From Nitrospirae bacterium CG2_30_70_394 (GTDB lineage Bacteria; CG2-30-53-67; CG2-30-70-394), in the NCBI GenBank assembly GCA_001873295.1, contig MNYW01000099.1, positions 1-37,422 on the forward strand: DNA of 37,422 nucleotides. The letters run 5' to 3'. Position 1 is the stretch's first letter, and each line of letters opens with the position of its first letter. Below, in pieces: positions 2,271 through 20,412 of this stretch. The notes beneath the pieces are model-generated. The model saw only the letters and a list, made by a program, of their open reading frames with translations, did not search any database and was not told where the DNA came from. A program made the translations under genes and the position numbers.

Positions 2271-3203
2271 TCAGCGCACCGAAATCAGCTCGATCTCGAA
2301 GATCAGGGTCTCGTTGGGACCGATCACCGGCGGCTGGCCAGCGCTGCCGTAGGCGAGCTCCGGCGGGATGAAGAGGCGCCAGCGATCGCCGGGGCGCATG
2401 CGGACCAGGGCCTCCTGCCAGCCCGCGATCACCTGGGAGAGGGCGAGGGTCGCGGGGCCGCCGTGGCGCTCGGAGCTGTCGAACTCCGTCCCATCCAGGT
2501 GGCTCCCGCGGTAGCGCACCACCACGGTCGCGTCCTTGTCCGGCTTGTTGCCCTTGCCCTCCGCGATCACCTCGTACTGCAGGCCGCTGCGCCGATGCTC
2601 GACCCCCTCCTTGTCGCGATTGGCGGCGAGGAAGGCCGCCCCCGCCTCGGCGTTCGCCCGGGCCACCGCCGCGCGCTCGGCGGCGAGCCGCTCCTTGCGG
2701 GCCGCGACCACCACCATCATTTCGCCGGGGGCGATCTGCGCCGGCCGGTGGCCCAGCGCATCCGCCACGCCGCGCCCGATCGCCTCGGCGTCGATCGAGC
2801 CGACCTCCTGCTGCACAAGCTGCTGGCCGCGCTGGACGCCGACGGCGTAGCTGAAGTCCAGCCGCTGCGCCGCCGTTCCCTCGCCCCGGGTGCGCATCGC
2901 TGCGCCCAGCGCCTCCGGGGTGAGGCGGATCGGCGCGCCGCGCACCACGGCGGCCAGACCGCTACCGACCTCCGCGGGATCCACCACCTCCAGGCCGTCG
3001 CTAATCAGCGCCTCGCCGAGCTGGTATCCGGCGGCATAGCTGAAGCGCGCCTCCTCGCCGGTAAGCGGCGTACCCACCGCCACCCTTGCCACCAGGGTCA
3101 GGAGGAGACCGAGGAGGGCCAGGGGGTAGGTGCGTGAGGGGGCGGAGCGGGAAACGGGATGGCTCGTGGCGCGCGACCGGGGGGACCCAAGGGCGCGCCT
3201 CAC
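2271..3203 (-). CDS. FKBP-type peptidyl-prolyl isomerase with duplicated N-terminal dimerisation-like domain
   Basis: 310 residues. A short basic leader and a hydrophobic segment (about residues 24-42, TYPLALLGLLLTLVARVAVG) suggest export. Two successive copies of an Fkp_N/Mip-like helical unit follow: FSYAAGYQLGEALI at about 52-65 and FSYAVGVQRGQQLV at about 111-124. A complete FKBP_C domain fills the last 90 residues (VVVRYRGSHLDGTEFDSS, VIAGWQEALVRMRPGD, IPPELAYG, LIFEIELISV). By family it should catalyse cis-trans isomerisation of prolyl bonds in exported proteins. The GTG start overlaps the upstream isomerase stop by 4 bp (GTGA), which indicates translational coupling and decides the start. 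Duplication of the N-terminal unit is unusual, since most Mip/FkpA proteins have one. It is probably periplasmic, or anchored if the leader is not cleaved. Confidence 0.88.
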   Translation of the reverse strand: MRRALGSPRSRATSHPVSRSAPSRTYPLALLGLLLTLVARVAVGTPLTGEEARFSYAAGYQLGEALISDGLEVVDPAEVGSGLAAVVRGAPIRLTPEALGAAMRTRGEGTAAQRLDFSYAVGVQRGQQLVQQEVGSIDAEAIGRGVADALGHRPAQIAPGEMMVVVAARKERLAAERAAVARANAEAGAAFLAANRDKEGVEHRRSGLQYEVIAEGKGNKPDKDATVVVRYRGSHLDGTEFDSSERHGGPATLALSQVIAGWQEALVRMRPGDRWRLFIPPELAYGSAGQPPVIGPNETLIFEIELISVR

Positions 3204-4210
3204 GGGGCCTCTCCCGCCGGCTCCGCCAGCGCCGGGTCGAGGATCTCGATCTTCGCCTTCGCCCGCAGACCCTTCAGCCAGGTCGCGACGCGCTCCTCGC
3301 TCCAGCTCCGTTGAAGGTCTTTGCGCAGCTTGGTCTCCACCTCCGCAAAGGAAACCTGGTGGTCGGGGAGGAAGCGGTCGACCTTCAGGAGATAGATCCC
3401 CTTGAGATCCTCCACCGGGTTGGAGACCTGCCCCTCGCGCAGGCCCCACACCACCTTGTCCATCGCCGGCGGCAGCCGCCCGGCGTGGAGCGGGCCGAGG
3501 AGGCCGCCCGCCTCCTTCTCCTCCGCGGGGGCGTCGGAGACCGCCCGCACTACCTCCTCAAACGGCTCCCCCGACTCGATCCGCGCCAGCGCATCCTTCG
3601 CCTTGTTCAGATAGCCGTTCCACATCTGATCGTTGCGATTGAGGATCGGGACCTGGATGAAGATTTCCCGGACCACCGCGCGCTTCGGCTCGACAAACTT
3701 CGCCAGGTTGTCCTGGTAGTACTTCTGCGCCTCGGCGCGACTCACCGGACGATCCGGGTCGGCCACCTGGCGTTCGCCGATTTCGAGAAGCCTCCGGTTG
3801 CGCAGCTCCGTCTTCACCGCGTCGACGGTGAAGCCGCCCTTCGCCAGCTCCGCGCGGAAGGCGGCCTCGTCCGGGTACTTGGCGATCACCTTGGCCAGCG
3901 CCTCGGCCAGCTCCCCCTTGTCCACCCCCACGCCTCGTTGCTGCGCGTCCGCGAGCTTGAGCTGCCGGTCGATCACCGTCTGCATCGCCTGCCGGCGCAG
4001 GGTCTGGCGCTTCGCCTCATCCACCGTGCCGTGGTAGCTCGACCACGGCAAAAGGCGGCTGAGCTCCCCCTCCACGTCGCGCCGCGAAATCTCCACCCCG
4101 TCGACGCGGGCCACGATCGCGTCCAGGGGGTTCTCCTCCGCCTCTACCGCCGGCGGGAGGAGGAGCAAGCAAACGAGGCACAGGAGGAGGCGGGAGGCAA
4201 GGGCGGACAT
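3200..4210 (-). CDS. SurA/PpiC-like periplasmic peptidyl-prolyl isomerase (chaperone)
   Basis: 336 residues from an ATG preceded by GGAG at a normal distance. A signal peptide is clear (MSALASRLLLCLVCLLLLPPAVEA). Residues 24-160 resemble a SurA_N chaperone domain, with a typical opening (AIVARVDGVEISRRDVEGEL). A divergent rotamase domain follows at about 175-280 (VVREIFIQVP, SGEPFEEVVRAVSDAPAEEKEAGGLLG, LREGQVSNPVEDLKGIYLLKV). Family role: folding and escort of outer-membrane proteins through the periplasm. It is translationally coupled to the downstream FKBP isomerase. Such a pair would suit a cell that exports large beta-barrels and cytochromes like those encoded next door; that link is inferred. 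An in-frame ATG 45 bp upstream is less likely because the signal peptide begins here. Confidence 0.9.
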   Translation of the reverse strand: MSALASRLLLCLVCLLLLPPAVEAEENPLDAIVARVDGVEISRRDVEGELSRLLPWSSYHGTVDEAKRQTLRRQAMQTVIDRQLKLADAQQRGVGVDKGELAEALAKVIAKYPDEAAFRAELAKGGFTVDAVKTELRNRRLLEIGERQVADPDRPVSRAEAQKYYQDNLAKFVEPKRAVVREIFIQVPILNRNDQMWNGYLNKAKDALARIESGEPFEEVVRAVSDAPAEEKEAGGLLGPLHAGRLPPAMDKVVWGLREGQVSNPVEDLKGIYLLKVDRFLPDHQVSFAEVETKLRKDLQRSWSEERVATWLKGLRAKAKIEILDPALAEPAGEAP

Positions 4211-4548
4211 GGAGACTCCAGAGGGTGAGGGGATGCCATCAGACAGGTGCAACAACGGGCCGCGCGCCGCGGGTGGGGTGGGGTGGACCTCTCGACCCTC
4301 CCGGCGAGCGGAGCCGGCGACCCTTGGGGCCCAGCAGACCGGCCAGGGGTCTCGGTTGCGGGAAGTCTGTCAGACTTTGGCGGCCGTCGCGAGCAGAGGC
4401 AAACTCGATTCCGGATCGGGAGGGTGCGCCAGGCGACGTGCGGTCAGGGAACCCCCCACGGCGCCCGATCCGGGCCGCGTGGGGCCGCTTCGAAGGTCGC
4501 TCGACAGGCTCCGACCGCGGCCACCTTCCGTACTCCCCACCCAGAGAA
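4211..4548. other. Gene-free leader region of the isomerase pair, with a 15-bp dyad
   Basis: No gene is seen. The notable element is AAGTCTG-T-CAGACTT at 4363-4377, a perfect odd dyad with 7-bp arms about 155 bp upstream of the SurA-like start. It would suit a repressor or activator site, but no factor can be named. Confidence 0.45.
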
Positions 4549-7600: not shown

Positions 7601-8534
7601 TGCACGCCTCCGGCAGACCGGGCCGGCGGGTGGGATCGTGGTCGTCGCAGTCGCCACCGCACACCGGCACGCCGTCGCCGTCGGCGTCGTGGTCGGTCGT
7701 CCACTGGACGCCGTCGCAGTTGGTGTCGAGGCCGTCGCACACCTCCACCGCCCCCGGGTGCACGGACGGCCGCGTGTCGTCGCAGTCCACCGCGCCGCAC
7801 AGGCCACCCTCGGTGGCGTAGCCGTCATGATCGACATCCGTACACACCGGGCAGTCCACCGCGCTCGGGTCGGCGAGGTCGATCAGGCCGTTGCAGTTGT
7901 TGTCGATCCCGTCGGTGCACAGCTCGGTCGCTACGGGGTTCACACCGGCGTGGAAGTCGTCGCAGTCCGCGCCGCCGCACACGCTATCCAGGTAGCCGTC
8001 GCCGTCGCGGTCGGGGCAGGTGCAGCCCACCTCATCCACCCTACCGTTGCAGTCGTTGTCCTTGCGGTCGCCGCACACCTCGACGCTTCCGGGGTAGACC
8101 GCCGGGTCGGTGTCGACGCAGTCCGAGGGCACGGCGCAAAAGAGGTAGCCGTCATGATCGAGATCCTGCTCGACCACCGGGATGACCCCGTTGCAGTCGT
8201 CATCGACGCCGTTGCACACCTCCGGGTTGCCGGGAAAGCGATTCGGGTCGCCGTCGTCGCAGTCGCCGTTACAGGCCGCGAAGCCGTCCCCATCGCGGTC
8301 CCAGTCGGTCGACGATTGGACCCCGTCACAGTTGGTGTCGAGGCCATCGCACACCTCCACCACCCCGGGATGGACCGCCCCATTGGCGTCGTTGCAGTCG
8401 GTGCCGCCACAGGCGAGATCGGCAAAGCCGTCGCCGTCCGCATCCACACAGGTCTGCGCATAGGACGCGGGTGGAACCACGATTCCGCAGACCAGCACGA
8501 ACGACCCGAGGATGAACTTGGTGATGGTGAACAT
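4617..8534 (-). CDS. Secreted MopE-repeat/multiheme cytochrome fusion (7 CXXCH, HYDIN-like domain, His-rich tail)
   Basis: 1305 residues. The ATG at 8534 has GAGGGGAG upstream and opens a signal peptide ending ASYAQ. About twelve MopE-type units (D-x-D-x-DG...DC-D...V-PG-x-E-x-C..G-D-x-x-C-G) fill residues 28-365 and recur between later domains. Four monoheme domains follow, with CISCH, CITCH, CVGCH and CVRCH near residues 388, 648, 845 and 983. Each is followed by a conserved Met (MPEG, SMASYL, TMSDYV, SMATYL) and a WI/WV..QGA-type ending, as in PSCyt1-like cytochromes. Between the first two lies a HYDIN/choice-of-anchor-D beta domain (VDFGVVTLG..., about 530-620). Three tandem repeats of about 60 residues at the C-terminus carry CRTCH, CLLCH and CVACH (near 1114, 1172, 1233), then a His/Asp/Trp-rich tail (HHHDHDRDD). 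Expected location: periplasm or cell surface. MopE repeats bind Ca2+ or other metals in known relatives. No enzymatic activity can be assigned. Confidence 0.88.
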   Translation of the reverse strand: MFTITKFILGSFVLVCGIVVPPASYAQTCVDADGDGFADLACGGTDCNDANGAVHPGVVEVCDGLDTNCDGVQSSTDWDRDGDGFAACNGDCDDGDPNRFPGNPEVCNGVDDDCNGVIPVVEQDLDHDGYLFCAVPSDCVDTDPAVYPGSVEVCGDRKDNDCNGRVDEVGCTCPDRDGDGYLDSVCGGADCDDFHAGVNPVATELCTDGIDNNCNGLIDLADPSAVDCPVCTDVDHDGYATEGGLCGAVDCDDTRPSVHPGAVEVCDGLDTNCDGVQWTTDHDADGDGVPVCGGDCDDHDPTRRPGLPEACNGLDDDCNGVVPQAERDLDNDGYFACQGDCMVYDPAIRPGAAEVCGDTIDQNCDGVDEPCAQPVDFPSQIQPLFDASCISCHFTGGEAPDLTAGNSYAALVGQAAGCAGQTLVVASNAAASYLVAKVQPDGVAPACGVKMPEGSGGLSTAQADLIARWIDEGALATTVDGDGDGYTADVDCNDANPTVNPGMAEIANNGLDDDCNRATPDSPGGDPYVAWVTASVDFGVVTLGATAAASAVVESTGSAELVITALTTSDPAFTVDTAALPLPAVVGVGATLTLPLLYTPSVAGNTTASLTLTSNAFNGGATVALLGTGYDATARVPYAAVQAIFDRSCITCHDASQVPDLRAGQSGSALLSTLPICPSTYYVVPGTGNSAASLLVQKVDPAVSPTCGGSMASYLAALDVATLTAWVAQGADAGNGLSVDADGDGYWAGIDCNDANGAVHPGAVEILFNGEDDDCDPTTIDNPVVDNDNDGWSSNFDCNDNDPAVNPGRVEVVENGIDDDCSPATPDVVRRLDFVADLQPIFTANCVGCHGPAAPIANLDLATGAGCANLVNGGYVVAGDRAASLLAAKVAVGGTMSDYVTLVEAERIAAWIDQGATCPPPVIDADGDGFEATVDCDDTNPNVNPGAAELPGNGIDDDCNASTPDLIPAVDFAASVQPIFTANCVRCHGGDAALSGLDLSAGVACANLYTGGYVVVNDRGASLLYQKVAAGGSMATYLSPAEAEVVGQWISQGAVCPAVADADGDGFDATVDCDDTNPNVNPGRVELAGNHLDDDCNPATVDTGLDATTLLSGKCRTCHADFSARVACTNEEWRHHRGGRVRPVEYLTVSLYLTGDSCTPRQQVDAAEALTTTCLLCHADLSAQVGCTNGRWRAHNGGRVSFAIFDAVNELLTGAVCASHDGEIDPRDELAITCVACHEDRSAHIDDQPAAYMRHAPGEDDLVSMPILKAVGEEVGGHDHWEGHRRWWRHRWEEKEHHHDHDRDD

Positions 8535-8633
8535 GCGCTCCCCTCTCGAACAAAAGGCCACGCGAGACGTGGCGAACTGGACCCGAACAGCGCGAGGCCA
8601 GACTCTCACCCTCGGCAACGCCGGATCACCGTT

Positions 8634-9041: not shown

Positions 9042-12000
9042 CTACTGCTCCGCGCTCGGCCCCGGCCGCATGAAGCCGCGGTTGTGGTCGTGGCAGATCA
9101 TGCAGTAGGCGCCATCGTGGTGGCCGGCGTAGCTCCCACTGGCGTCGAAGTCGCCGGGCGCCATGCCGTCGTAGCGGTGGTGGTTGGTGAGGCTGTGGCA
9201 CGTCTCACAGATGTTCGCCTCGTGCGGCGCGCCGTCGGCGAGCGAGCCCGGGCCCGAGCGGCTGGTGTTCACCACCTTCGTCCCTTGCAGAACGCTCCCC
9301 GAGTTGAACTCACGCAAGAGCTTGCGGTTGTTGCCCACCTTGAACATCGGGTCGTGACAGTCGATGCACTTGAAGTCGTAGGTGTAGTGGCCCGAGGCGA
9401 ACGGGTTCTGCGCCGGATCCGAGGAGTGGGCGTCGCGCAGGCCGTGACACTTCTTGCACTCGGCGTTCGGGATCGGGGTGGCGAAGTTCACGTTCCCGCT
9501 GCTGTCCGGCGCGTGGCAGAACTGGCAGTTGTCGAGGAAGAACGGCGTGTTGTGCGGCGCCTGCGGCTCACCGCCGGTGGGCTTGAAGCCGTCGCTGTGG
9601 TGGTGACAGGTAATGCACGACTGGCTGTCGTGGTGGCCGACGTAACGGCCCGCCCCATCAAGATCGGAGGGGGCATCGCCCGTGCGCCGGTGGTGGTGGG
9701 TCCGCGTGTGGCACGTCTCGCAGATGTTCTCGAGGTGCGGCGGGCCGTCGGCGAAGGAGCCGGGACCGGCGGCGTTGGTGAACTCCACGAAGCTCTCGTG
9801 GTGCTCTCCGGTGGCCGCGTTATCGAAGCAGATGTACTCCTTGACCAGCTTGCCGTAGCTGGTGCCGAAGGCGCGGTTCTGCTCCTGCTGGTGCGGGTTG
9901 TGGCAGGTGATGCAGTGCATCCCCCAGGTGCCGTACTTCTCCCCCAGGACGGTGGAGGCGTGGGTCTGCACGTTCGGCGCCGAGCCGAAACCGTACGGCC
10001 AGGGCAAGGGGTACTGAACCTTCAAAATCCCGTTCTCCGGATCGGAGGGGTTGGTCGAGTCGGCGTGGCAGCGCTGGCAGAGGAAGCGCGCATCGGGCAC
10101 GCCGTCCTGCGGGCCGTTTAGCGAGCCGTGGCACTTGCCACAGCGCAGGGCGGCGTTGTCGGGATGGACCGTGTCATCCGGGCTGAGCAGGGTGCCGAGG
10201 TGGGGCGGGTCCCGCGGGGTAGTCTTGGTGCTGCAGGTCGGCGGCGCACACCGGCCATCGGCGGCGTCGATCATGGAGTTGCAGTCGTTGTCCAACCCGT
10301 CGGTACACACCTCGATGTTGCCCGGGTAGACCGCGGGGTTGGTGTCGTCGCAGTCGCCGGCGCAGATCGCCACGCCGTCATGGTCCGCGTCGACGTCGGT
10401 CGGCGCGGTCACCCCGTCGCAGTTGTTGTCGAGACCGTCGCAGATCTCCGTCATCCCCGGATTGACGAGGGGGTTGCCGTCGTTGCAGTCGGTCCCGCCA
10501 CAGGTGGCGTCCTTGTAGCCGTCGAGGTCGCCGTCGATGCAGCCGCTCAGGCAGTCGGCCTCGTCCGCCAGGTCGATCAGGCCGTCGCAGTCGTTGTCGA
10601 GGCCGTCGTTACAGATCTCCGGCGCCCCCGGGAAGGTGGTGGGGTTGTGGTCGTCACAATCGCCTTCACAGGTGGTGTGGGCATCGGCATCGGCGTCGGG
10701 GCAGATACAGCTCGTCTCGTCCAACACCCCGTCGCAGTTGTTGTCGACCCCATCGAGGCAGAGCTCGGGCGCCCCTGGGTAGGCCGTGTTGTCGTGGTCA
10801 TTGCAGTCCGGCGGGGTGTCGCAGCTCCGCACCCCGTCCCCGTCGGGGTCCCGCTCGCTGGCGGGGAGGATGCCGTTGCAGTCGTCGTCGACGCCGTTGC
10901 ACAGCTCGGTGGCACCGGGATGGACGGCCGCATCGGCGTCGTTGCAGTCGCCGGCGCACAGGGCCACACCGTCGCCGTCACCGTCGTGGTCGGTGGCCCC
11001 CACCACCCCGTCACAGTTGGTGTCCTTGCCGTCGCACACCTCGGTGGCGCCGGGATGCACCGCCGCATCGGCGTCGTCGCAGTCGATTAGGCCGCAGACC
11101 CCCCCGCTGGTGGCGTAGCCATCGTGATCGAGGTCGGCCGCCGCGCACGCCTGGCACGCAGCGGTGGCCCCGCAGGCTGCGTCGCCACAGTCGCTACTGC
11201 CGTTGCAGTCGTTGTCGAGGCCGTCGGCGCACACCTCGGGGCTCCCCGGGTAGACGGTGGCATTGGCGTCGTTGCAGTCGTCGCCGCCGCACGCCGCCAG
11301 GAGGTGGCCGTCGCCGTCCCCGTCCGGGCAGGTGCAACCCACCTCGTCCACCCCCCCGTCGCAGTTGTTGTCGAGGCCGTCGGCGCACACCTCAACATTC
11401 CCCGGGTAGACGGTGGCATTCGTGTCGTTGCAATCCGGCGGGGTGTCGCATTCCCGCACCCCATCCCCGTCCCCGTCCCGCTCGCTGGCGGGGAGGATGC
11501 CGTTGCAGTCGTCGTCGACGCCGTTACACAGCTCGGCGGCGCCGGGGTGGACCGCCGGGTCGGCGTCGTTGCAGTCGCCGGCGCACAGGGCCACACCGTC
11601 GCCGTCACCGTCGTGGTCGGTGGCCCCCACCACCCCGTCACAGTTGGTGTCGAGGCCGTCGCACACCTCGACCGCCCCCGGGTGGACCGCCGGGTTGTTG
11701 TCGGCGCAGTCGACCGCTCCGCAACCACCACCCTCGGTGGCGTAGCCGTCACCATCCGCGTCGGTACAGACCGGGCAATCCGTCGCGTCGGGGTCGGCAC
11801 GGTCGATCAGGCCGTCGCAGTCGTTGTCGATCCCGTCGGTGCACACCTCGCCCGCGCCCGGGTGGACCAGGGAGTCGTGGTCGTCGCAGTCGGTGCCACC
11901 GCAGCCGTGGTCCAGGTAGGTATCGCCGTCGAGGTCGGGACAGACGCAGCTCCCGTCATCCGTGAGGCCGTCGCAGTTGTTGTCCTTGTGGTCGCCGCAC

Positions 12001-12443
12001 ACCTCGACGCTTCCGGGGTAGATGGCCGCATCGAAGTCGTTGCAGTCGCCGCCACAGACCCCCGTGCCGTCCTTGTCGACGTCACGCTCATTCGCCGGCA
12101 CGTTGCCGTTGCAGTCGTTGTCCAGGCCGTCGCACACCTCGGGGGCGCCGGGGTGGACGGCGGCCTTGCTGTCGTCGCAGTCGCCGGCGCAAACCGCAAA
12201 TCCGTCGCCGTCGTTGTCGTGGTCGGTCGCCCACTGGACGCCGTCGCAGTTGGTGTCGAAGCCGTCACACACCTCCGCCGCCCCGGGGTGCACGGACGGT
12301 TTGGCGTCATTGCAGTCGGTGCCACCACAGGCGGAATCCGCGTAGCCGTCGCCGTCCGCATCCGGACAGGTCTGGGCGTAGGCGGTGGCGGGGCCGAGAC
12401 CGAGCAGCGCGAGGGTGGCGATCAACAGCAGCGGGCGGGCCAT
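9042..12443 (-). CDS. Secreted MopE-repeat/decaheme cytochrome fusion
   Basis: 1133 residues. The ATG at 12443 has GGAG upstream and a signal peptide ending ATAYAQ. The mature protein opens like its neighbour ending at 4617 (TCPDADGDGYADSACGGTDCND). Residues 25-745 hold about fourteen MopE-type Asp-rich, Cys-containing repeats. The last 370 residues carry ten heme sites in order: CGKCH, CQRCH, CITCH, CETCH, CITCH, CQFCH, CKKCH, CIDCH, CETCH, CMICH. Two modules are clear internal copies: ENICETCHTRTHHHRR...GHHDSQSCITCHHH and ANICETCHSLTNHHRY...GHHDGAYCMICHDH. Abundant His residues suggest bis-His ligation. The architecture points to a metal-stabilised stalk carrying a heme wire, secreted or at the cell surface. 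It has its own sigma-54-like promoter and terminator, so it is a single transcription unit. The 627-bp internal duplication within the repeat part makes assembly errors possible. Confidence 0.88.
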   Translation of the reverse strand: MARPLLLIATLALLGLGPATAYAQTCPDADGDGYADSACGGTDCNDAKPSVHPGAAEVCDGFDTNCDGVQWATDHDNDGDGFAVCAGDCDDSKAAVHPGAPEVCDGLDNDCNGNVPANERDVDKDGTGVCGGDCNDFDAAIYPGSVEVCGDHKDNNCDGLTDDGSCVCPDLDGDTYLDHGCGGTDCDDHDSLVHPGAGEVCTDGIDNDCDGLIDRADPDATDCPVCTDADGDGYATEGGGCGAVDCADNNPAVHPGAVEVCDGLDTNCDGVVGATDHDGDGDGVALCAGDCNDADPAVHPGAAELCNGVDDDCNGILPASERDGDGDGVRECDTPPDCNDTNATVYPGNVEVCADGLDNNCDGGVDEVGCTCPDGDGDGHLLAACGGDDCNDANATVYPGSPEVCADGLDNDCNGSSDCGDAACGATAACQACAAADLDHDGYATSGGVCGLIDCDDADAAVHPGATEVCDGKDTNCDGVVGATDHDGDGDGVALCAGDCNDADAAVHPGATELCNGVDDDCNGILPASERDPDGDGVRSCDTPPDCNDHDNTAYPGAPELCLDGVDNNCDGVLDETSCICPDADADAHTTCEGDCDDHNPTTFPGAPEICNDGLDNDCDGLIDLADEADCLSGCIDGDLDGYKDATCGGTDCNDGNPLVNPGMTEICDGLDNNCDGVTAPTDVDADHDGVAICAGDCDDTNPAVYPGNIEVCTDGLDNDCNSMIDAADGRCAPPTCSTKTTPRDPPHLGTLLSPDDTVHPDNAALRCGKCHGSLNGPQDGVPDARFLCQRCHADSTNPSDPENGILKVQYPLPWPYGFGSAPNVQTHASTVLGEKYGTWGMHCITCHNPHQQEQNRAFGTSYGKLVKEYICFDNAATGEHHESFVEFTNAAGPGSFADGPPHLENICETCHTRTHHHRRTGDAPSDLDGAGRYVGHHDSQSCITCHHHSDGFKPTGGEPQAPHNTPFFLDNCQFCHAPDSSGNVNFATPIPNAECKKCHGLRDAHSSDPAQNPFASGHYTYDFKCIDCHDPMFKVGNNRKLLREFNSGSVLQGTKVVNTSRSGPGSLADGAPHEANICETCHSLTNHHRYDGMAPGDFDASGSYAGHHDGAYCMICHDHNRGFMRPGPSAEQ
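10854..11672. repeat. Internal direct duplication (627-bp period) in the MopE-repeat region
   Basis: Segments starting at 10854 and 11481 are nearly identical over about 190 bp, including a long exact run around 10950-11020 and 11577-11647. The offset of 627 bp equals 209 codons, so a block of about four MopE units has been duplicated in frame. At protein level the copies share stretches such as TNCDGVVGATDHDGDGDGVA and CNGVDDDCNGILPASERD. Confidence 0.8.
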
Positions 12444-12766: not shown

Positions 12767-14443
12767 CTACGGGTAGACCGACGGGAGGTGGTCCTTGCCG
12801 TGGCAGCTCAGGGTGCACTGGCCGGCGAAGGTGCCGTTGTCCTGGAACGCCAGGGTCCCGAGGTAAGGGGTGACGATGGCGGTGTCGAAGTTGATCAGGT
12901 GGCTGTTGTGGGCGGCGTCGCCTTGGGTGGCGCTGATCCCGTGGGCGTCGTGGCAGACCGAGCACGGCGCGTTGACCGTCACCCCGAGGTGGAGGGCGTG
13001 GGTGGGGAAGCTCTGATTGGCGAGGATGCTGGTCCGATCGTGGCACTTGTAGCAGAGGGCGTAGGCGGTGGCGGACTCCGCCGTACCGTCGGCAACGACG
13101 TACTCGCGCTCCAACAGAAAGGGGTAGATCGAGCCGTGCGGACCGGCCGGCCCGGCGCCGCCATTGCCCGGGCCACTGTCGCTGGCGTGGCAATCGGTGC
13201 AGTAGACGAGGCTGCTGGTGTTCCACGGGGAGAGCAGACTCGGGACGTTGAGGTTGGTTCCCGGCCACTCCACCGGGTGGAACGACGGGTTGTTGCGGTC
13301 GAACTCCAGGCGGGTGTTGGTCTGCAGGAGCTGGCGGGAGATCGCGGCGGCGCCGTTGGCCGTGTCGCCGTGGCACTTGAAACACACCTCGTACTGGTTC
13401 GTGGCGGGGGTGGCGGGGGTGCCGAGATCGGTGATCCCGGAAACCCCGGCCAGCGCTCCGCTGGCGGCCGGCACCTGCGCGGTGGTGGCGTTGGCGGCGT
13501 GGGGGTTGTGGCAGTCGACGCACTCCACGTGGCGCGCCATGGTGGCGGAATCCTCGGTGGGGTCGTGGACCCCGAAGGTGGTCTCTACCGGGTGGTGATA
13601 TGGCTTTTGCTGGTCCGCCACGACGCTCTTGAAGGAGACGTGGCCGTTGTGACAGACGAGGCAGTTGTCCTCCTCGGTGTCGGAGCGCAGGAGGCGGCGG
13701 GAGCTGCCGGCGTTGTGCGGGCTGTGGCAGTTTTCGCAGGCGTTGGCGGCGACCGTGGTCTCGGTGGAGTTTGGCCACGGGTCCGGGGGGGTGGAGTCCC
13801 ACACCTCCTGGGAGGTGGCGTGGGCGGCGGCAAGCCACCCCACCGGGTCGTGGCAGGTGGTGCACAGGGCCGAGGCGAGGTTCGGCTTGCGCAGGAAGTG
13901 GCCGGCCGCGTCGTCGTGGGGGTCGTGGCAGCTCGTGCACTGCACCAGCCCCGCCGGGTCGAGGGGGAGGTCGAGGAGGGCGGCCTGGACGTAGCCGGGG
14001 AGGGTGGTCGGATACGCCATGGAGACCGGGTGGTCATCCTGGAGATCGGTGTCAAGGAAGGCGGGGCCGGCGTTCAGGTTCTCCAGACCGGTGGGAAAGG
14101 CGATCGGCGCCGGCCGGCTTCTGACCTCGCCGAGGGCGATGGTGCCGTCGTGGCACGACAGGCAGAGCTTCGAGCTGCCGGTCGGCTGGCCGGGCGCGTT
14201 CTGGAGGGTTGAGCTGGTGTAGGTGATGTAGCTGGCAACGGACTCGTTGCGGTTCCACAAGACGCCAACGCCGCTGGACTCGTGGGGGGTGTGGCAGAAG
14301 ACACACACCTCCTCCTCCACCAGCGATTTGTACGGGCCGGGGCCGGAGACCGACAGGTTGTGCTTCGAGTCAACCACCGACATGGAGCGCGCCGGCGGGG
14401 CGAGGAGGGTGAGGAGGGCGGACAACAAGACCGCGAGCTTCAT
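12767..14443 (-). CDS. Secreted 11-heme c-type cytochrome (doubled-CXXCH family) with an extra CX3CH
   Basis: 558 residues. The ATG at 14443 overlaps the preceding lipoprotein stop (ATGA). The signal peptide is MKLAVLLSALLTLLAPPARS. Eleven CXXCH motifs are visible: CVFCH (47-51), CLSCH (94-98), CTSCH, CTTCH, CENCH, CLVCH, CVDCH, CFKCH, CTDCH, CYKCH, CSVCH. A further CTLSCH (543-548) has three residues between the cysteines. CHTPH and CHDPH pairs mark the doubled-CXXCH/cytochrome c3-like family. The N-terminal half is homologous to the 241-residue tetraheme cytochrome at 19687 (LLWN.../PTG.SKLCL.CHDGT, then HP.S..Y). It is the last gene of a coupled run with a pentaheme lipoprotein, a beta-barrel and an NHL lipoprotein. 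It is a good candidate for the outer-face component of an electron conduit, or for a filament-forming cytochrome; which of these cannot be decided from sequence. Confidence 0.9.
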   Translation of the reverse strand: MKLAVLLSALLTLLAPPARSMSVVDSKHNLSVSGPGPYKSLVEEEVCVFCHTPHESSGVGVLWNRNESVASYITYTSSTLQNAPGQPTGSSKLCLSCHDGTIALGEVRSRPAPIAFPTGLENLNAGPAFLDTDLQDDHPVSMAYPTTLPGYVQAALLDLPLDPAGLVQCTSCHDPHDDAAGHFLRKPNLASALCTTCHDPVGWLAAAHATSQEVWDSTPPDPWPNSTETTVAANACENCHSPHNAGSSRRLLRSDTEEDNCLVCHNGHVSFKSVVADQQKPYHHPVETTFGVHDPTEDSATMARHVECVDCHNPHAANATTAQVPAASGALAGVSGITDLGTPATPATNQYEVCFKCHGDTANGAAAISRQLLQTNTRLEFDRNNPSFHPVEWPGTNLNVPSLLSPWNTSSLVYCTDCHASDSGPGNGGAGPAGPHGSIYPFLLEREYVVADGTAESATAYALCYKCHDRTSILANQSFPTHALHLGVTVNAPCSVCHDAHGISATQGDAAHNSHLINFDTAIVTPYLGTLAFQDNGTFAGQCTLSCHGKDHLPSVYP

Positions 14444-15474
14444 GGCTGCGCCTCGGGAAGGAGCTGGTAGATCTGGATGCGGTGGTTGTAGGTATCGGCG
14501 ACGTAGACGCGATCGTGGGCGTCGATGGCAATCCCGGACGGCAGCCACAAGGAGGCGGCGTCGCTCCCCGAGTGGGCGAAGGCGAGGAGCGGCGCGCCGG
14601 TGCGCGCCAGGACCTGGACGTTGTCGAACAGGGCGTCGACCACCAAGAGGTGGTCCAGGGAGTCCACCGCCACCCCCTTCGGCTTGCTGAAGGTGCCCGG
14701 ACCGTCCCCCAACCGGCCAATCACCGCCAGGGAACGGCCCGCTGGATCGAGGATCTGGATCCGGAAGTTCATCGCGTCGGTGACATAGAGGTTGCCGTGG
14801 CGATCCAACGCCAGGTGGGTGGGAAAGTTGAACTCCCCCGCCTTGGCGCCGCGGCCGCCGATCACCCGCACCACCTGCCCATCCGGCCCAAAGACCACCA
14901 CCTGGTGGCGGGTGGTGTCCGCCACGTAGATGCGATCGCGCTCGGTATCGACCGCGATCCCCGTCGGCCGATCGAGGAGGCCGCCACTCCCCAGCTCCCC
15001 CAGGGAGCGACCCTTGAGATCGAAGCGCAGAACCTGGCCGAGGACCGAGTCGCTCACCAGGAGGTGGCCGTGGCCGTCGAGCGCCGCGTCGATCGGCGAC
15101 GGCAGGCTGAGGTGGTCGTCGCTGGGGATGCGCTGGATCCGATGGTGGAGGGGATCGAGGAGCAGGACGCGGCGCGCCCCCGGGTCGGTGACCAGCAGGC
15201 GGCCATCTTCCAGACACTCGATGCCCATCGGCCGGGTGAGGAGGCTCTCCTGGCGATGGCCAAGGACCGTGTCGACCACCCTCCCCCACCAGCCTCGCTG
15301 GATGCCGAGATCCACCTCGTGGCGAATCTCCCCGACCCGCTGCACCCGCGCCGGTTGGGGCAATGGCGGCCAGTTGACCGTCTCCGGCGCCGGCGGCGGG
15401 ACGGTGGCACAGGCCACAGAGAAGAGGAGGGCGGCGACTGGGGCCCACCCCATGCAGGTTGACCGGCGAGGCAC
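14440..15474 (-). CDS. Six-bladed NHL-repeat beta-propeller lipoprotein
   Basis: 344 residues from a GTG at 15474, 10 bp after the beta-barrel stop. From here the leader is MPRRSTCMGWAPVAALLFSVAC, which gives a basic n-region and a lipobox-like FSVAC with the cysteine at residue 22. The internal ATG at 15453 is an alternative start with no visible ribosome site. Six NHL blades follow, each with a P.GI..D....-Y/L-V.D...-R/Q-V core (for example RPTGIAVDTERDRIYVADTT and FPTHLALDRHGNLYVTDA). Propellers of this type bind proteins or sugars and usually lack catalysis. It is coupled by ATGA overlap to the 11-heme cytochrome and lies just after the beta-barrel, so it probably acts as a periplasmic or surface scaffold for the cytochrome. 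NHL proteins also neighbour cytochrome nanowire genes in Geobacter, as recalled from general knowledge. Confidence 0.85.
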   Translation of the reverse strand: MPRRSTCMGWAPVAALLFSVACATVPPPAPETVNWPPLPQPARVQRVGEIRHEVDLGIQRGWWGRVVDTVLGHRQESLLTRPMGIECLEDGRLLVTDPGARRVLLLDPLHHRIQRIPSDDHLSLPSPIDAALDGHGHLLVSDSVLGQVLRFDLKGRSLGELGSGGLLDRPTGIAVDTERDRIYVADTTRHQVVVFGPDGQVVRVIGGRGAKAGEFNFPTHLALDRHGNLYVTDAMNFRIQILDPAGRSLAVIGRLGDGPGTFSKPKGVAVDSLDHLLVVDALFDNVQVLARTGAPLLAFAHSGSDAASLWLPSGIAIDAHDRVYVADTYNHRIQIYQLLPEAQP

Positions 15475-15484
15475 GTGCGGGCGC

Positions 15485-17443
15485 CTAGAACCGTTTGCGC
15501 AGGCGAAGGAAGAGACGGTTGTTTTCATCGTGGCCACTGATATCCGAGTCAATGTAGTCCTGCGTATCCACCATGCTGATCTCGATCAGCCGGTAACGAA
15601 GATTGCCTTCAAGCTGAAAGCGCAGGCCGGTGAGCTTATCCGCGATCTGCTCGCGCTCGTCGTAGGTGGTCTGAAAGCTGAACCGGGCGAAGCGGCGCGG
15701 GTACCAGTCGGCCCGGGCCATCGCAGTCTTGCCCGCGAAGCTCTCCGCCAAAGCCGGGTAGGTGGTCCGCGTCCACGCCCCGGCGATCGCGACCGCCACC
15801 GTGGACGAGGGCCGCAGGGTGATCGTCTGGCGCGCCTGCACCCGGTCGTAGGGGGAGCTCGGGTTCTCCTGTTTCTCGTACGACACCTCGCTCGTCGAGA
15901 TGCCGCGGCTCAGGCGCGCCCCCACGTTGGTGCCGGTGGACGACTGGAAACGCAGGCTGCTGGCCTCCCCACTTTGCAGATGGACGGAGCTGTGCGAACG
16001 ACTCGCGTAGACCGCCAGCCCCCAGTTGAAGGCGTAGGCGCCCCCCACGTTCCAGCCGTCGGTGAGGAAGGTGACGTCCGGCTGGGCGTGGACTTCGTAG
16101 TCGACGAGGACCGTGTCCCCCACCCGCAACCGGCCGCCGGGCACCAGCTCCAGGCGAGTCCAGTCGCCGACGGTCTCGATGCGGTAATCCAGGCCGTCGA
16201 TGTAGGGGAGGTTCCCGGTGGGATCGGTGACCACCACCGTCTCCACCAGGACACTCAACTCGTCGAGAAAGACCACCCCGTCGACCAGGAAGGTGTGGCG
16301 CTCGTCGATCGCCAGGCCGCGGCCGCCGAGCCCTTCCTCGCGGTTGAGGGTCCGATTCCCCCCCAGGCTCAGGGAGAGCGACCCTCCCGGAACCCGCTTG
16401 CGGTAGGCCCAGGCGAGGTCGCCGGAGACCTCGTCGTCGCGCCCCGCCTCGTTGATGTGCTGGTGGTCGGCGGCGAAGTCGAAGCTCGTCTCCAGGCTTT
16501 CGTAGAGCTGGTGCACCAACGATAGCGAGCTCTGGACGTCGGTGACCCGGCTCCCCGGCGAGCTCTGCCGGCGGGCCGCGGTCTGCAAGTGGGAATGGAG
16601 CCGCGGCGTGAATTTCCACCCGAAGCCACCGGCGACGTGCTCCTCCTGGAAGAGGAAGAGGCCGGTCTGGCGACTCGCCCCGGCGGACAGGTTGGCAGTA
16701 GCGCCATGGTCCGGGTCGAACCGGCCGCCGCTGGAGAGCTCGATCCGATGGGTCAGCAGGGGCTCGGTGGCGAAGCTCGAGTCGTTCTCGTTCAGGGTAT
16801 AGACCAGGCGCCCCTCGCCGCTCTCCCCCCGGTAGTCGGCCTGGTAGCGCGCCTCGGTCCGCTCCTCGTCCAGGGGAAAGGCCCCGCCTTGTTGCGTCGT
16901 TGCGCGCTGCAGGCTGAAAAAGGAGGGGATGCGCCGCTTGCGCAGATTGAGCCGCGCCCCCTCCAGCTCCGAGACCACCTCTTGCTGGGGGGTGAAGGCG
17001 CTGTCGGTGATGCCGGTGCGCCGCCGGGCAAAGAGGTCGACACCGTACGGGTGTTCCTGGAAGAGACCCAGATTGACCCCGTAGCCACGCAACAGGGCGT
17101 TGGTCTCCACGGAGTCCGACGATCCGCCGCTTTCGGTCGTCTCGTCGAGCTGCTGGAGCTCGACCTCCCCATCGACATCGAAGACCAGGAAGCGCGGGTG
17201 GTAGACGAAGCCGCGCCCCTCCATGGCGACCAGCTCCCGCCAACCGTTCTGGGTCGCGGTGCTGGAGGAGACCTCCCGGTCACCCGCCGGCGACTCCTGG
17301 ACGGCATGCTCGCGCTCGTACTCCAAATCGAGACGACCGCCGACCCCCTGGAGGACGATCCAGCCGAACTGGCGCGGGCGCGCCTCGCCAGCCACCGCGG
17401 TGCCGAGGAGAACGGCCATTAGCAAACTGAACCACCCCCTCAT
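15485..17443 (-). CDS. Outer-membrane beta-barrel, putative porin of a porin-cytochrome conduit
   Basis: 652 residues. The ATG at 17443 overlaps the upstream pentaheme lipoprotein stop (ATGA). The signal peptide is MRGWFSLLMAVLLGTAVAG. The mature protein consists of alternating amphipathic stretches rich in aromatic residues, Ser and Thr, with charged loops, and ends LFLRLRKRF, the terminal Phe typical of BamA substrates. A short globular-looking insert lies near residues 385-460 (VVFLDELSV, GDWTRLELVPGGRLRVGDTV). Length and context match the MtrB/PioB/OmbB-type porins that sheathe multiheme cytochromes across the outer membrane, although no sequence signature proves that family and no CXXC motif is present. 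The adjacent pentaheme lipoprotein and 11-heme cytochrome would be its inner and outer partners. The barrel call is strong; the conduit role is inferred. Confidence 0.8.
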   Translation of the reverse strand: MRGWFSLLMAVLLGTAVAGEARPRQFGWIVLQGVGGRLDLEYEREHAVQESPAGDREVSSSTATQNGWRELVAMEGRGFVYHPRFLVFDVDGEVELQQLDETTESGGSSDSVETNALLRGYGVNLGLFQEHPYGVDLFARRRTGITDSAFTPQQEVVSELEGARLNLRKRRIPSFFSLQRATTQQGGAFPLDEERTEARYQADYRGESGEGRLVYTLNENDSSFATEPLLTHRIELSSGGRFDPDHGATANLSAGASRQTGLFLFQEEHVAGGFGWKFTPRLHSHLQTAARRQSSPGSRVTDVQSSLSLVHQLYESLETSFDFAADHQHINEAGRDDEVSGDLAWAYRKRVPGGSLSLSLGGNRTLNREEGLGGRGLAIDERHTFLVDGVVFLDELSVLVETVVVTDPTGNLPYIDGLDYRIETVGDWTRLELVPGGRLRVGDTVLVDYEVHAQPDVTFLTDGWNVGGAYAFNWGLAVYASRSHSSVHLQSGEASSLRFQSSTGTNVGARLSRGISTSEVSYEKQENPSSPYDRVQARQTITLRPSSTVAVAIAGAWTRTTYPALAESFAGKTAMARADWYPRRFARFSFQTTYDEREQIADKLTGLRFQLEGNLRYRLIEISMVDTQDYIDSDISGHDENNRLFLRLRKRF

Positions 17444-18198
17444 TCGCCATCCCCCTCGGCGCCGTTCGCCGCCGGGTCGTCTGCGGTGGGCGGCAGGGCC
17501 ACCGGCGGCGGGGTCGCGGCGGGCGACCCGGCGGCGGGCGGCGGCTTCAGGAAGTAGCGGCGATCGCCACCGTGCGGGTCGTGGCAGGCGGTGCAGTCCA
17601 GCTGCTCCTTCGCCTGGGCGTGATACGCGGTGGCGTAGAGCTGCTCCGCCTGATGGCAGCGCACGCACAGCTTGCGCACCGGCTGGTCGAGGACCATGAA
17701 CGGGCTTTGGGTCTGGTGCGGGCTGTGGCAGCGGACACACGCACCCGCCGCCACCGGGCCATGGACGAAGGGAAACCGCCGCCCCAGCTCCGCGAGTCGA
17801 AAGGGGACGTGGCAGTCGCGGCAGAGCTCGGTGACCGGCAGGCGGATCTTTGTCCCGAAAGCGGCCTGCCGGCTCCCCGCCTTCTGCCCTGGGATGTACA
17901 TCGACGGCCCGCCCGGACTCGCCAGGTGACAGGCGGTGCAGTTCTTCGAGGCGTACGGACCATGGCTATAGACCTGGAGAACCGCCGCCTCCGCTGCTGG
18001 CTTCTTGTCGCCCGCGGCGGCGGACTCATCCGCTGGGGCCTGCACCTCGCCGGGCCGCGGTACCCCGTCAAAGAAAAAGGCGAGGACGCGATACCGTTGC
18101 TCCGCCGCGCACCCCCCAACCGCCAGGCAGGTGGCGATCAGAAGGAGCGCGCCAATGGCGTGGTATCGCCGCAATGGAGCGCATGAAATCCGAGCCAC
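17440..18198 (-). CDS. Pentaheme c-type cytochrome lipoprotein
   Basis: 252 residues. The start is GTG at 18198, with GGGAG nine bases upstream; no in-frame ATG comes before the signal. The leader ends LAVGGC with the lipid-bearing cysteine at residue 30. Five heme sites follow: CTACH (87-91), CRDCH (126-130), CVRCH (154-158), CVRCH (178-182), CTACH (202-206), with the CHSPH and CHDPH signatures of cytochrome c3/NapC-like multihemes. The tail (about 215-252) is Pro/Ala-rich and probably disordered. It heads the coupled run lipoprotein cytochrome, beta-barrel, NHL lipoprotein, 11-heme cytochrome. By analogy with OmaB or MtrA it would sit on the periplasmic face of the barrel and pass electrons into it; this is inferred. 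Five hemes is fewer than in the known conduit cytochromes (8-12), so the conduit would be short or need another partner. Confidence 0.88.
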   Translation of the reverse strand: MARISCAPLRRYHAIGALLLIATCLAVGGCAAEQRYRVLAFFFDGVPRPGEVQAPADESAAAGDKKPAAEAAVLQVYSHGPYASKNCTACHLASPGGPSMYIPGQKAGSRQAAFGTKIRLPVTELCRDCHVPFRLAELGRRFPFVHGPVAAGACVRCHSPHQTQSPFMVLDQPVRKLCVRCHQAEQLYATAYHAQAKEQLDCTACHDPHGGDRRYFLKPPPAAGSPAATPPPVALPPTADDPAANGAEGDGE

Positions 18199-18298
18199 GG
18201 AAACAACTCCCCCCCCCCTGTGGGCCTACCCGGTGGACCGTCCTCCCTGCCAATCGGCGCACCCCAACCGCCGCTCAACCCGCGCCGTTGCTGCCTGC

Positions 18299-19435
18299 TC
18301 ACCGCATCCCCCCCTGGCCACCGCCCTCCTCCAGGGCGGCCGGGTTGGTGTAGACGGGAGGATACTTCTCGTGCTCCCCAAAGGCGTAGACCGCGACGTT
18401 GCCGGGGCCGTACTGATTGACCACCAGGATCATGAACTCTGCCTTGAACTCCTTGTCGACGCGGGAGTGGAAGTAGTCGGGAAGATCCGGGGTGATGGCG
18501 ACCGCGGTCGGCAGCCACATCAGCCCGGGGCGGCTGCCGGCGCCGCCGAAGAACATCAGAACCTTGCCCGCCGGGCTGAAGAGCTGGACGTTCTCGAACG
18601 CCGCATCCACCACATAGAGGCGGTCCGCCGGATCGATGGCGATCCCGCGCGGCCGGGCGAAGGCGCCGATCGCGTCGCCCGGGTTGCCGATCGTCTGCAG
18701 GAAGGTGCCGTCGGCGGCGAACTTGCTGATGTGCGCCTCCATCGAGTCGCAGACGTAGATGTTCCCCTGGCTGTCCACCGCCACCGAGATCGGCGCCACC
18801 AGATAGCCACCGGCCAACTCGTCACCCGCGCCGGGGTCTGCACGGCCGATCTCCTGCAGCAGCTTGCCGGTGTGGATGTCCCACACGTGCACCTGGTGGC
18901 CGCGGATGTCTGCCACGTAGAGGCGATCCCCCTTGATACACAGCCCCACCGGGCGGGATCCCTCCCCCGTGGTCCAGGCGCCAAGGTACTTCTCCTCCGC
19001 GCTGTAGCGGAGGACCTCGCCGCGCTTCGCGTCGGCCACGTAGACCGTCCCCTCCCCATCGACGGCGATGCCGGTGGGGCGCATAAGCGCCCCCTGCTCG
19101 CCGGTGGCGAGGGCGTGCATCTTGCGTTCTTTGAGATCAATCACCACCACGATCCCGAACTGGCCGTCGGTGACGAAGATCTTGTTGTCGTGGTACGCCG
19201 CCCCGTACGGATGGGCAAAGCGGAAGGTATCCGCCTTTCCCACCACCAGCTCCTGAAACTGGGACGGCGGTTTGATGTCCTCCATCCCCTGGAACCGGTA
19301 GAGGTACTGGATGCGCGGCGGGGTCGGGGGCTCGGGAAAGAAGAGGGTGGGGAGGGGCTTCTTGGCGCTCGTGCAGCCGGTGGCGACGACCACCCCGAGG
19401 AGCAGCGCGCGGCGAAGGGAGAGGGGAATCAGCAT
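18299..19435 (-). CDS. Second six-bladed NHL-repeat lipoprotein
   Basis: 378 residues from an ATG with GGAG eight bases upstream. The leader LRRALLLGVVVATGC ends in a lipobox with the cysteine at about residue 21. Six NHL-type blades are visible, for example MRPTGIAVDGEGTVYVADAK, APISVAVDSQGNIYVCDS and RPRGIAIDPADRLYVVDA. The last blade ends in an extended loop (about 325-350) before ILVVNQYGPGNVAVYAFGEH. It is a paralogue of the NHL lipoprotein ending at 14440. A gap of 100 bp separates it from the pentaheme lipoprotein, so it may be the first gene of the same operon. No strong promoter element was found in the 250 bp upstream. Likely a membrane-anchored scaffold facing the periplasm or outside; no catalytic residues are expected. 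Confidence 0.85.
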   Translation of the reverse strand: MLIPLSLRRALLLGVVVATGCTSAKKPLPTLFFPEPPTPPRIQYLYRFQGMEDIKPPSQFQELVVGKADTFRFAHPYGAAYHDNKIFVTDGQFGIVVVIDLKERKMHALATGEQGALMRPTGIAVDGEGTVYVADAKRGEVLRYSAEEKYLGAWTTGEGSRPVGLCIKGDRLYVADIRGHQVHVWDIHTGKLLQEIGRADPGAGDELAGGYLVAPISVAVDSQGNIYVCDSMEAHISKFAADGTFLQTIGNPGDAIGAFARPRGIAIDPADRLYVVDAAFENVQLFSPAGKVLMFFGGAGSRPGLMWLPTAVAITPDLPDYFHSRVDKEFKAEFMILVVNQYGPGNVAVYAFGEHEKYPPVYTNPAALEEGGGQGGMR

Positions 19436-19503
19436 GGATGGAGCTCCGGTGAACTGGCGTCCGCGTAACCACCGCGGCGCTGCAGGGGCCAACCCCCGCG
19501 CAT

Positions 19504-19545
19504 TCAAAGGCGCGCCAAGGGCGCAAGATTTCACCACGAAGGAGG
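19504..19545. repeat. Degenerate 'cgccaaggcgcaag' intergenic repeat
   Basis: TTCAAAGGCGCGCCAAGG followed by GCGCAAGATTTCACCACGAA belongs to the same loose family as the elements in the 1720-2270 spacer. It lies between the second NHL gene and the tetraheme terminator. Confidence 0.4.
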
Positions 19546-19613
19546 GGGCGGGGGCAAAGGTCTTGTACCCCATCCCTGCGCGCCGCGCCGCCGGCGTGGC
19601 GGACCGAACCCAG

Positions 19614-19647
19614 AAAAAAATCCCCGGCCGGTTGCCCGGCCGGGGAT
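19614..19647 (-). terminator. Rho-independent terminator of the tetraheme cytochrome gene
   Basis: On the minus strand, arms ATCCCCGGCCGG and CCGGCCGGGGAT (12 bp, perfect) enclose a 4-nt loop and are followed by a run of seven or more T residues (A-run at 19614-19620 on the plus strand). This is the clearest intrinsic terminator in the window, 40 nt past the stop at 19687. Confidence 0.93.
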
Positions 19648-19686
19648 CTCCTTCATCCGTTCACCCCGGAGGGGAACGAACCATCC

Positions 19687-20412
19687 CTACTTGATGTGGC
19701 AGGTGAGGCAGAGCTGCGAGGCACCGCCCGTGCTCGCCGTGGTGCCGACCCGCAGGAGGTGGGTATTTGCCACCGCCTCCTGGTCATGCACGTCGTGGCA
19801 AGAGGAGCACTGCACCAAGCCGTCCTCGAGGACGTCGACGATGAACACCGGGCCCATGGCGCGGGTGGTTGGATTCCACAGCCCCTGATCCGCAACGTTG
19901 TCGTACTTGATGGAGATCGGGTGGGTGTTGGAGAGGTTCTTGTCCGCTCCCACGTTGGCGATGCGCGGCACGGTGAAGCCACCGCCGCCGATGGTGGAGT
20001 CGGTGATGTAGAGGGTCTGGTAGCCGGCGCCGGTCTTGCCAACCTTGTTATCGAACTCGTCGATGGCGACCGTCCCGTCGTGGCAGCCGAGGCAGAGCTT
20101 GGAGATGCCGGTCGGCTCATTCTCCTGCTGCGGCGAGTCGAGGAAGTTGATGTGGGTGTCCTCGGCGTACATCAGGTAGGTGGCGCTGGAGAGCTGATGG
20201 TTCCACAACAGGCCGATGTCGCCGGTGTTCTTGCCGTGATCATGGGGCACATGGCAGACGCGGCAGATCTCACCGCGGTGGTTCCACGTGTCGGTGGCGA
20301 AGTCGTGGGGAGACCCTACGATGCCGTTGCCGGCGCCGTTTGCGAGGGCCGCGGTGGGGGCGAGCATGGTGGCCAAGGCCAGGCCGGCGGTGAGGGAAAG
20401 AAGGGATTTCAT
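19687..20412 (-). CDS. Secreted tetraheme c-type cytochrome, OmcE-sized
   Basis: 241 residues. The ATG at 20412 has a perfect AGGAGG eight bases upstream. Signal peptide: MKSLLSLTAGLALATMLAPTAALA. Heme sites: CRVCH (50-54), CLGCH (107-111), CSSCH (202-206), CLTCH (235-239). The opening SPHDFATDTWNHRGEICRVCH is typical of the doubled-CXXCH cytochrome family, and the protein is homologous to the N-terminal half of the 11-heme cytochrome ending at 12767. Length and heme count equal those of OmcE (four hemes, about 230 residues), a filament-forming cytochrome of Geobacter, but orthology cannot be shown here. The gene forms its own unit, with a consensus sigma-54 promoter, a strong ribosome site and a strong terminator, which suggests high regulated expression. 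It probably acts in the periplasm or as a secreted electron carrier. Confidence 0.92.
   Translation of the reverse strand: MKSLLSLTAGLALATMLAPTAALANGAGNGIVGSPHDFATDTWNHRGEICRVCHVPHDHGKNTGDIGLLWNHQLSSATYLMYAEDTHINFLDSPQQENEPTGISKLCLGCHDGTVAIDEFDNKVGKTGAGYQTLYITDSTIGGGGFTVPRIANVGADKNLSNTHPISIKYDNVADQGLWNPTTRAMGPVFIVDVLEDGLVQCSSCHDVHDQEAVANTHLLRVGTTASTGGASQLCLTCHIK

Follow-up and report, generated by a model that had tools for sequence, protein, structure and literature searches.

The window analysed here is the 37,422-nucleotide contig MNYW01000099.1 of Nitrospirae bacterium CG2_30_70_394 (assembly GCA_001873295.1), a whole contig of a 2.65 Mb genome that is 94% complete. On its minus strand it carries a cassette of six genes, transcribed in the order G, F, E, D, C, B, which encode multiheme cytochromes, NHL propellers and an outer-membrane barrel, with two of the cytochromes related to the filament-forming cytochrome OmcE. 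The locus had been singled out in an earlier reading of the letters alone (the sequence-only reading), whose gene coordinates, overlaps and sizes were confirmed by our gene check. The features are as follows:

19687..20412, minus strand: G, secreted tetraheme cytochrome, OmcE homologue and proposed filament subunit (241 aa; 4 CXXCH; signal peptide, no lipobox)
19614..19650, minus strand: intrinsic terminator in the gap between G and F (12-bp G+C-rich stem, GCAA loop, T run; fold z -5.1)
18299..19435, minus strand: F, NHL six-bladed propeller lipoprotein (378 aa; Pfam NHL 1.9e-23; lipobox ATGC)
17440..18198, minus strand: E, pentaheme lipoprotein, proposed wire within the barrel (252 aa; GTG start; 5 CXXCH; lipobox VGGC)
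15485..17443, minus strand: D, outer-membrane beta-barrel (652 aa; C-terminus ...RKRF)
14440..15453, minus strand: C, NHL six-bladed propeller lipoprotein (337 aa; Pfam NHL 3.9e-32; lipobox-like SVAC)
12767..14443, minus strand: B, secreted cytochrome with an OmcE-fold head and an eight-heme body (558 aa; 11 CXXCH + 1 CX3CH; signal peptide, no lipobox)

ATGA overlaps join E to D and C to B, the gap between D and C is 31 bp, and Pfam assigns B, E and G to the doubled-CXXCH cytochromes. PADLOC found nothing, and a consensus promoter scan found no promoter.

The barrel D is present in seven of the eight genomes of the window’s phylum that we examined, B is found in the same seven, and the order G-F-E-D-C-B holds up to where the contigs end; a peptidyl-prolyl isomerase (PPIase) gene directly follows B in five of these genomes (L008 and L010-L013), and a 14-heme gene precedes G in three. 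To look further afield, we scanned named genomes with the B alignment – a scan that may omit records very near the window’s genome – and took the best 80 of 563 confirmed relatives (42-54% identity). These 80 loci were selected by B, and the frequencies that we give for them hold for B-bearing loci. They fall into 13 named phyla (NCBI), including Planctomycetota, Verrucomicrobiota, Bacteroidota and Nitrospirota, with seven loci lacking a phylum name and most records being metagenome-assembled; the cultivated Desulforhopalus sp. IMCC35007 and Carboxylicivirga marina are among the carriers. D was found in 66 of the 80; several of the 14 loci scored as lacking it are short contigs, and in one (L033) a longer open reading frame (ORF) masked the match. 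Where the contig leaves room, B lies downstream of D (52/57 loci with more than 3.2 kb), E and F lie upstream of it (44/54 and 49/54, respectively, with more than 2.5 kb), and a tetraheme gene lies upstream of the barrel (40/46 with more than 4.5 kb). Within a wider sample of 290 genomes, 18 gave a match to B with an E-value of 1e-60 or better, and 11 of these 18 do not belong to the window’s phylum. Since both the barrel and the gene order are conserved in the phylum and across the 13 named phyla, the cassette is not a chance arrangement: it is real and widely conserved, and most likely encodes a conduit.

OmcE homology in cytochrome B and tetraheme G

Cytochrome B had been described in the sequence-only reading as an 11-heme protein. 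The 11 CXXCH motifs are indeed there, but the count overlooked a CX3CH motif near the end of the protein. The 11+1 pattern is shared by all six homologues from the phylum (window included) and by 76 of the 80 named loci, and because this last motif is so conserved 12 hemes are likely, making B, as judged by its motifs, probably a dodecaheme cytochrome.

The profile of B matches the filament subunit OmcE of Geobacter sulfurreducens (7TFS) with an E-value of 7e-46, covering nearly the whole of OmcE up to its last residue; a profile built from six B sequences gave 1.2e-38. The AlphaFold model of B is of high confidence (predicted local distance difference test score, pLDDT, 89.4; predicted template modelling score, pTM, 0.86), with the lowest-confidence part being the loop of heme 1 (residues 51-60), and a Foldseek search of the PDB with this model returned a single match at E 0.001 or better: 7TFS. 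Alignment of the model to OmcE by VIA-align 2 (Z 13.1, root-mean-square deviation 2.7 Å, 168 residues, 35% identity) spans B residues 27-199, which delimits an OmcE-fold head of roughly these residues with hemes 1-4, followed by eight further heme motifs. Four histidines of OmcE outside the CXXCH motifs, in KHDLS, CHTPH, NDHP and CHKVH, are shared with this family and correspond to B H28, H54, H138 and H176; the N-terminal His motif is kept in 83 of 86 B heads and in 56 of 70 G-like proteins. The eight-heme body resembles other multiheme proteins weakly in sequence, and the PDB search, made with the whole model and not with the body alone, gave no separate fold match for it. By both homology and predicted fold, B is a fusion, with an OmcE nanowire subunit making up its first ~200 residues and the eight-heme part appended to it. 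This subunit inside a secreted cytochrome is the most telling part of the locus, and it was missed by the sequence-only reading. In the B proteins of two gammaproteobacterial cassettes the C-terminus is a poly-glycine tail (L040:7692-9416, L075:9926-11659).

The ‘OmcE-sized’ tetraheme noted earlier turns out to be a true OmcE homologue: over its length the profile of G matches 7TFS at 7.8e-28, and it also matches 9YUQ, an entry with 16 chains of a 218-residue multiheme protein, at 5.3e-24. With four CXXCH motifs and all four of the conserved non-CXXCH histidines of OmcE, G is, by these sequence criteria, a stand-alone OmcE homologue.

G is set apart from the rest of the cassette by the terminator that follows it. 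A terminator scan missed the window’s hairpin, probably since its stem pairs into the T run, and we therefore relied on folding and on a script that looks for a hairpin followed by a T run. The script found this signal after 26 of 55 G genes, as compared to 1/58 for F, 0/73 for D, 2/61 for C and 4/74 for B. Counted per locus, the post-G terminator is present in 26 of 52 loci versus 25 of 2200 dinucleotide shuffles (1.1%), and it occurs in 5/5 loci of the window’s phylum as well as in seven other named phyla. The terminator separates G from the conduit genes, which would suit a part needed in many copies, although it could merely mark a separate transcription unit.

Lipoprotein E, barrel D and their likeness to known conduits

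The profile of lipoprotein E matches MtrA of the Shewanella MtrCAB complex (6R2Q) at 2.3e-14 over MtrA residues 60-221, that is, half of MtrA. Against the DmsE-family decaheme model E scores 51.7 bits (cut-off 192.2): it is a five-heme protein and not a decaheme MtrA. Among the 44 loci with a count, E carries five hemes in 29 and 7 to 21 in the others, and pentaheme lipoproteins are also part of the Geobacter Ext conduit clusters; we have therefore dropped the heme number of E as a mark of novelty. The motif FDGV of E is invariant solely in a small alignment (A3); it occurs in 25 of 41 E-like ORFs with five hemes and, over the whole set of E-like ORFs, in 38 of 97. At one locus (L079:4015-10929) the place of the pentaheme gene between the NHL gene and the barrel is taken by a pair of triheme genes, of which the first has a lipoprotein-like signal; this is the arrangement expected of the undecaheme electron transfer (Uet) complex discussed below.

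The AlphaFold model of D (pLDDT 92.3) is a barrel of ~28 long strands, 17 before and 11 after an inserted small beta domain, which comprises residues ~376-455 (window about 16079-16318, minus strand). VIA-align 2 ranks MtrB top (Z 22.0, root-mean-square deviation 8.6, 410 residues aligned; the next match scores 19.8), in a ranking where large barrels score alike. The Pfam and NCBIfam libraries include MtrB/PioB models, and the sequence-only reading had suggested a comparison with such families; our scan of the libraries gave no match to them, either for the window barrel or for any of the 61 barrels of the D family. Alignment A5 of the barrels was made from 61 length-filtered rows less L044, and alignment A6 from 72 rows less L059, L073 and L090. 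No credible Pfam or NCBIfam family covers these 61 proteins, the few matches all being to unrelated families, and so the D family seems, as judged by sequence, to be undescribed there. A weak match to an NCBIfam phage tail-tube model occurs in 15 of the 61. We also considered D as a TonB receptor, an usher or a lipopolysaccharide transporter, all of which come first in Foldseek. The MtrB lead in VIA-align 2, the lack of a matching family model and the neighbouring cytochromes and propellers speak against these assignments, and we keep them as a weaker rival to a conduit barrel. By these comparisons the barrel does not match an unrelated transporter family, and with E resembling MtrA and D having MtrB as its top VIA-align 2 match, the porin-cytochrome conduit that the sequence-only reading proposed is supported, with parts related to OmcE.

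As compared to MtrCAB, E has five hemes in place of the ten of MtrA, D lies outside the MtrB sequence models, and the outer cytochrome is an OmcE-like non-lipoprotein, B, in place of MtrC. The OmbB-OmaB-OmcB and Ext conduits of Geobacter share with the cassette a barrel with inner and outer multiheme cytochromes; judged by description, the cassette differs from them in that B carries an OmcE head and is not a lipoprotein, as OmcB is, and in that NHL propellers are part of the set. The OmcE filament itself is related to both G and the head of B by sequence, and to the head of B also by predicted fold; OmcE lacks the eight further heme motifs of B, and a filament role for G and B is a candidate one.

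The closest parts list is that of Uet, which has been proposed for electron uptake and was reportedly defined by Eddie et al. 2022. In the Uet complex of Tenderiales and Gallionella (PMC10734462), a tetraheme and a pair of NHL proteins accompany the barrel and a cytochrome of 11-12 hemes. By this description, UetJ, tabulated with 11 and 12 hemes, corresponds to B with its 11 CXXCH and one CX3CH; an extracellular tetraheme (UetA), a barrel (UetC) and two NHL proteins (UetHI) are likewise common to both sets. The PPIase UetB may have its counterpart in the SurA-like PPIase encoded in the window, though not next to the cassette. Where Uet has three periplasmic trihemes (UetDEG), the cassette has the pentaheme lipoprotein E: it precedes the barrel, and there is no triheme gene among the heme ORFs of the window. 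By analogy of parts, the cassette can be likened to a pentaheme variant of the Uet kind. The sequence-only reading had taken the propellers and the five-heme lipoprotein as the mark of a new kind of conduit; this is not supported, as Uet has two NHL proteins and pentaheme lipoproteins are known elsewhere.

Desulfovibrio ferrophilus DFE_0448-0451 and 0461-0465 place multiheme cytochromes beside NHL propellers with no porin-cytochrome conduit apparent (PMC9769857), and neighbourhoods related to DFE_0449/0462 are widespread (PMC11475568); likened by description, these clusters share the cytochrome and NHL proteins with the window, which has the probable conduit as well. A 2026 metagenome paper also mentions clusters centred on undecahemes (PMC13264449), and porin-dodecaheme complexes are mentioned for Manganitrophaceae (PMC9040806). 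At a Geoalkalibacter locus, an OmcE homologue has been noted together with a pair of NHL proteins (PMC12016550). What appears new here is the OmcE fusion in B: the open-licence literature searched, as far as its text was available, holds no statement of an OmcE subunit in an 11-12 heme protein or of a nanowire socket on a conduit, which is weak evidence of absence.

A proposed conduit with a nanowire socket

What we propose for the locus is a conduit of the Uet kind that spans the outer membrane and has a nanowire socket built into it; we give this model as a whole a probability of roughly 0.58. That the locus encodes an outer-membrane electron conduit is its firmest element, and one we hold to be very probable. 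Electrons would pass between a periplasmic multiheme carrier and E, which would be seated within D, a placement suggested by the resemblance of E to MtrA and the barrel fold of D. Outside, they would go to the eight-heme body of B and exit via its OmcE-fold head; as B lacks a lipid anchor, D and the propeller C would presumably hold it in place. Both propellers, C and F, are assigned their roles by analogy, as parts that would fit such a complex. G would be expressed from its own or an attenuated transcript and would form, by polymerisation, a filament rooted in the conduit; we lean towards G being extracellular and assembling in the manner of OmcE. OmcE subunits pair by a histidine of one ligating a heme of the next (PMC9473688, PMC12954529). 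The B head keeps the four non-CXXCH histidines of OmcE, one of them near the mature N-terminus, and end-to-end pairing with G is therefore possible. If the head does pair with G as OmcE does with OmcE, an unbroken heme chain would run from the periplasm to the wire. We advance only tentatively that G docks on this head, and with slightly more reserve still that B serves as a dedicated anchor and starter of OmcE-type wires, with G polymerising from the outer membrane and the terminator setting the ratio of wire to socket.

Several observations weigh against the socket. In 48 loci, the Mantel correlation with G is lower for the head (r 0.46) than for the body of B (r 0.55), and head-G identity is hardly higher within a locus (0.382) than between loci (0.373); with no head-specific signal in this co-variation test, we do not use co-evolution as support for docking. 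Such a result would sit well with another arrangement, in which B, like MtrC, ends the chain as an extracellular cytochrome, G stays a monomer, either soluble or at the surface, and the head docks nothing, its likeness to OmcE reflecting shared tetraheme ancestry. A quick tree built from 86 heads of B and 70 G-like proteins divides the two sets by a single change, albeit with weak support (54); the heads and G may thus, on this tree, be two families parted by a single split, as such an arrangement would have it, and an OmcE-like sequence is no proof of polymerisation. However, G is homologous to OmcE over its full length and has all four conserved His motifs, it is kept with the cassette (40/46 loci), and the terminator separates it like a part needed in excess; we consider a conduit without a wire unlikely, while regarding it as the more serious of the two alternatives.

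Other points touch the conduit itself: Foldseek places ushers and receptors level with MtrB, which ranks seventh, sequence profiles of D fail to reach MtrB, and in six Gammaproteobacteria genomes probed E gave no or weak matches. Chaperone-usher barrels being first in Foldseek, D could be mainly an usher-like export channel for G and B, which need some route across the outer membrane, with the propellers and the PPIase as assembly factors and with no insulated conduit; the gammaproteobacterial cassettes, in which no cytochrome gene separates the barrel from the first propeller, would fit this. Yet in 44 of the 54 loci whose contigs reach far enough, the gene directly before the barrel codes for an MtrA-like lipoprotein, and MtrB leads the finer structural ranking, which makes a mere export channel improbable.

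A 2025 review names the anchoring of nanowires and the entry of electrons into them as an open challenge, and notes the lack of direct biochemical evidence that would tie porin-cytochrome conduits to the formation of nanowires (PMC12307469). An outer cytochrome of a conduit that contains a nanowire subunit, encoded beside a lone subunit gene, makes the anchoring question directly testable and suggests how such nanowires could attach to cells. The operon is also a possible marker of electron exchange in little-known groups. If the socket model is true, the cassette would be a phylum-spanning, operon-encoded plug-and-wire machine.

Neighbouring genes and further cytochrome loci

Downstream of B, the window encodes three further proteins of interest:

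9042..12443, minus strand: A, conserved neighbour with MopE-type metal-binding repeats and 10 CXXCH (Pfam Cu-binding_MopE 5.5e-157)
4617-8537, minus strand: second MopE-repeat protein, directly downstream of A (scattered cytochrome domains; weak matches to cbb3-type III, PSCyt1 and PccH-like)
3200..4213, minus strand: SurA-like PPIase (Pfam PPIC/SurA)

A is 53-54% identical to genes beside the cassette in L011 and L012, and because related genes adjoin the cassette in these two relatives, A, with its MopE repeats and ten CXXCH motifs, may be a functional partner of the cassette. The PPIase gene lies ~8.5 kb downstream of B, with the two MopE genes in between; its product is 33-37% identical to four of the five PPIases encoded directly after B in the phylum.

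Elsewhere, the window’s genome encodes a 14-heme protein with an iron-sulphur (FeS) protein and an NrfD-type membrane subunit (NrfC/NrfD-like). In this locus, L094 (G000:C50:9000-17000), genes for FeS and NrfD-type subunits, a c554-type tetraheme and the 14-heme cytochrome stand in a row, and the set is likely an inner-membrane entry or exit for the conduit. The 14-heme protein is 46-50% identical to those adjoining the cassette in three relatives and is likely the conduit’s periplasmic partner.

Searched for with a loose pattern, an N-terminal proline motif common to the two propellers occurs in 33 of the 64 F and 25 of the 86 C proteins; it was not used. Four loci (L035, L038, L040 and L075) have a second cassette nearby, with an NHL protein, an 18-24 heme cytochrome and a triheme gene beside it, which is perhaps another conduit. 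Finally, a 790-residue ORF in the window’s genome (L097:1613-3985) carries 29 CXXCH motifs, one CXXCH-rich repeat after another.

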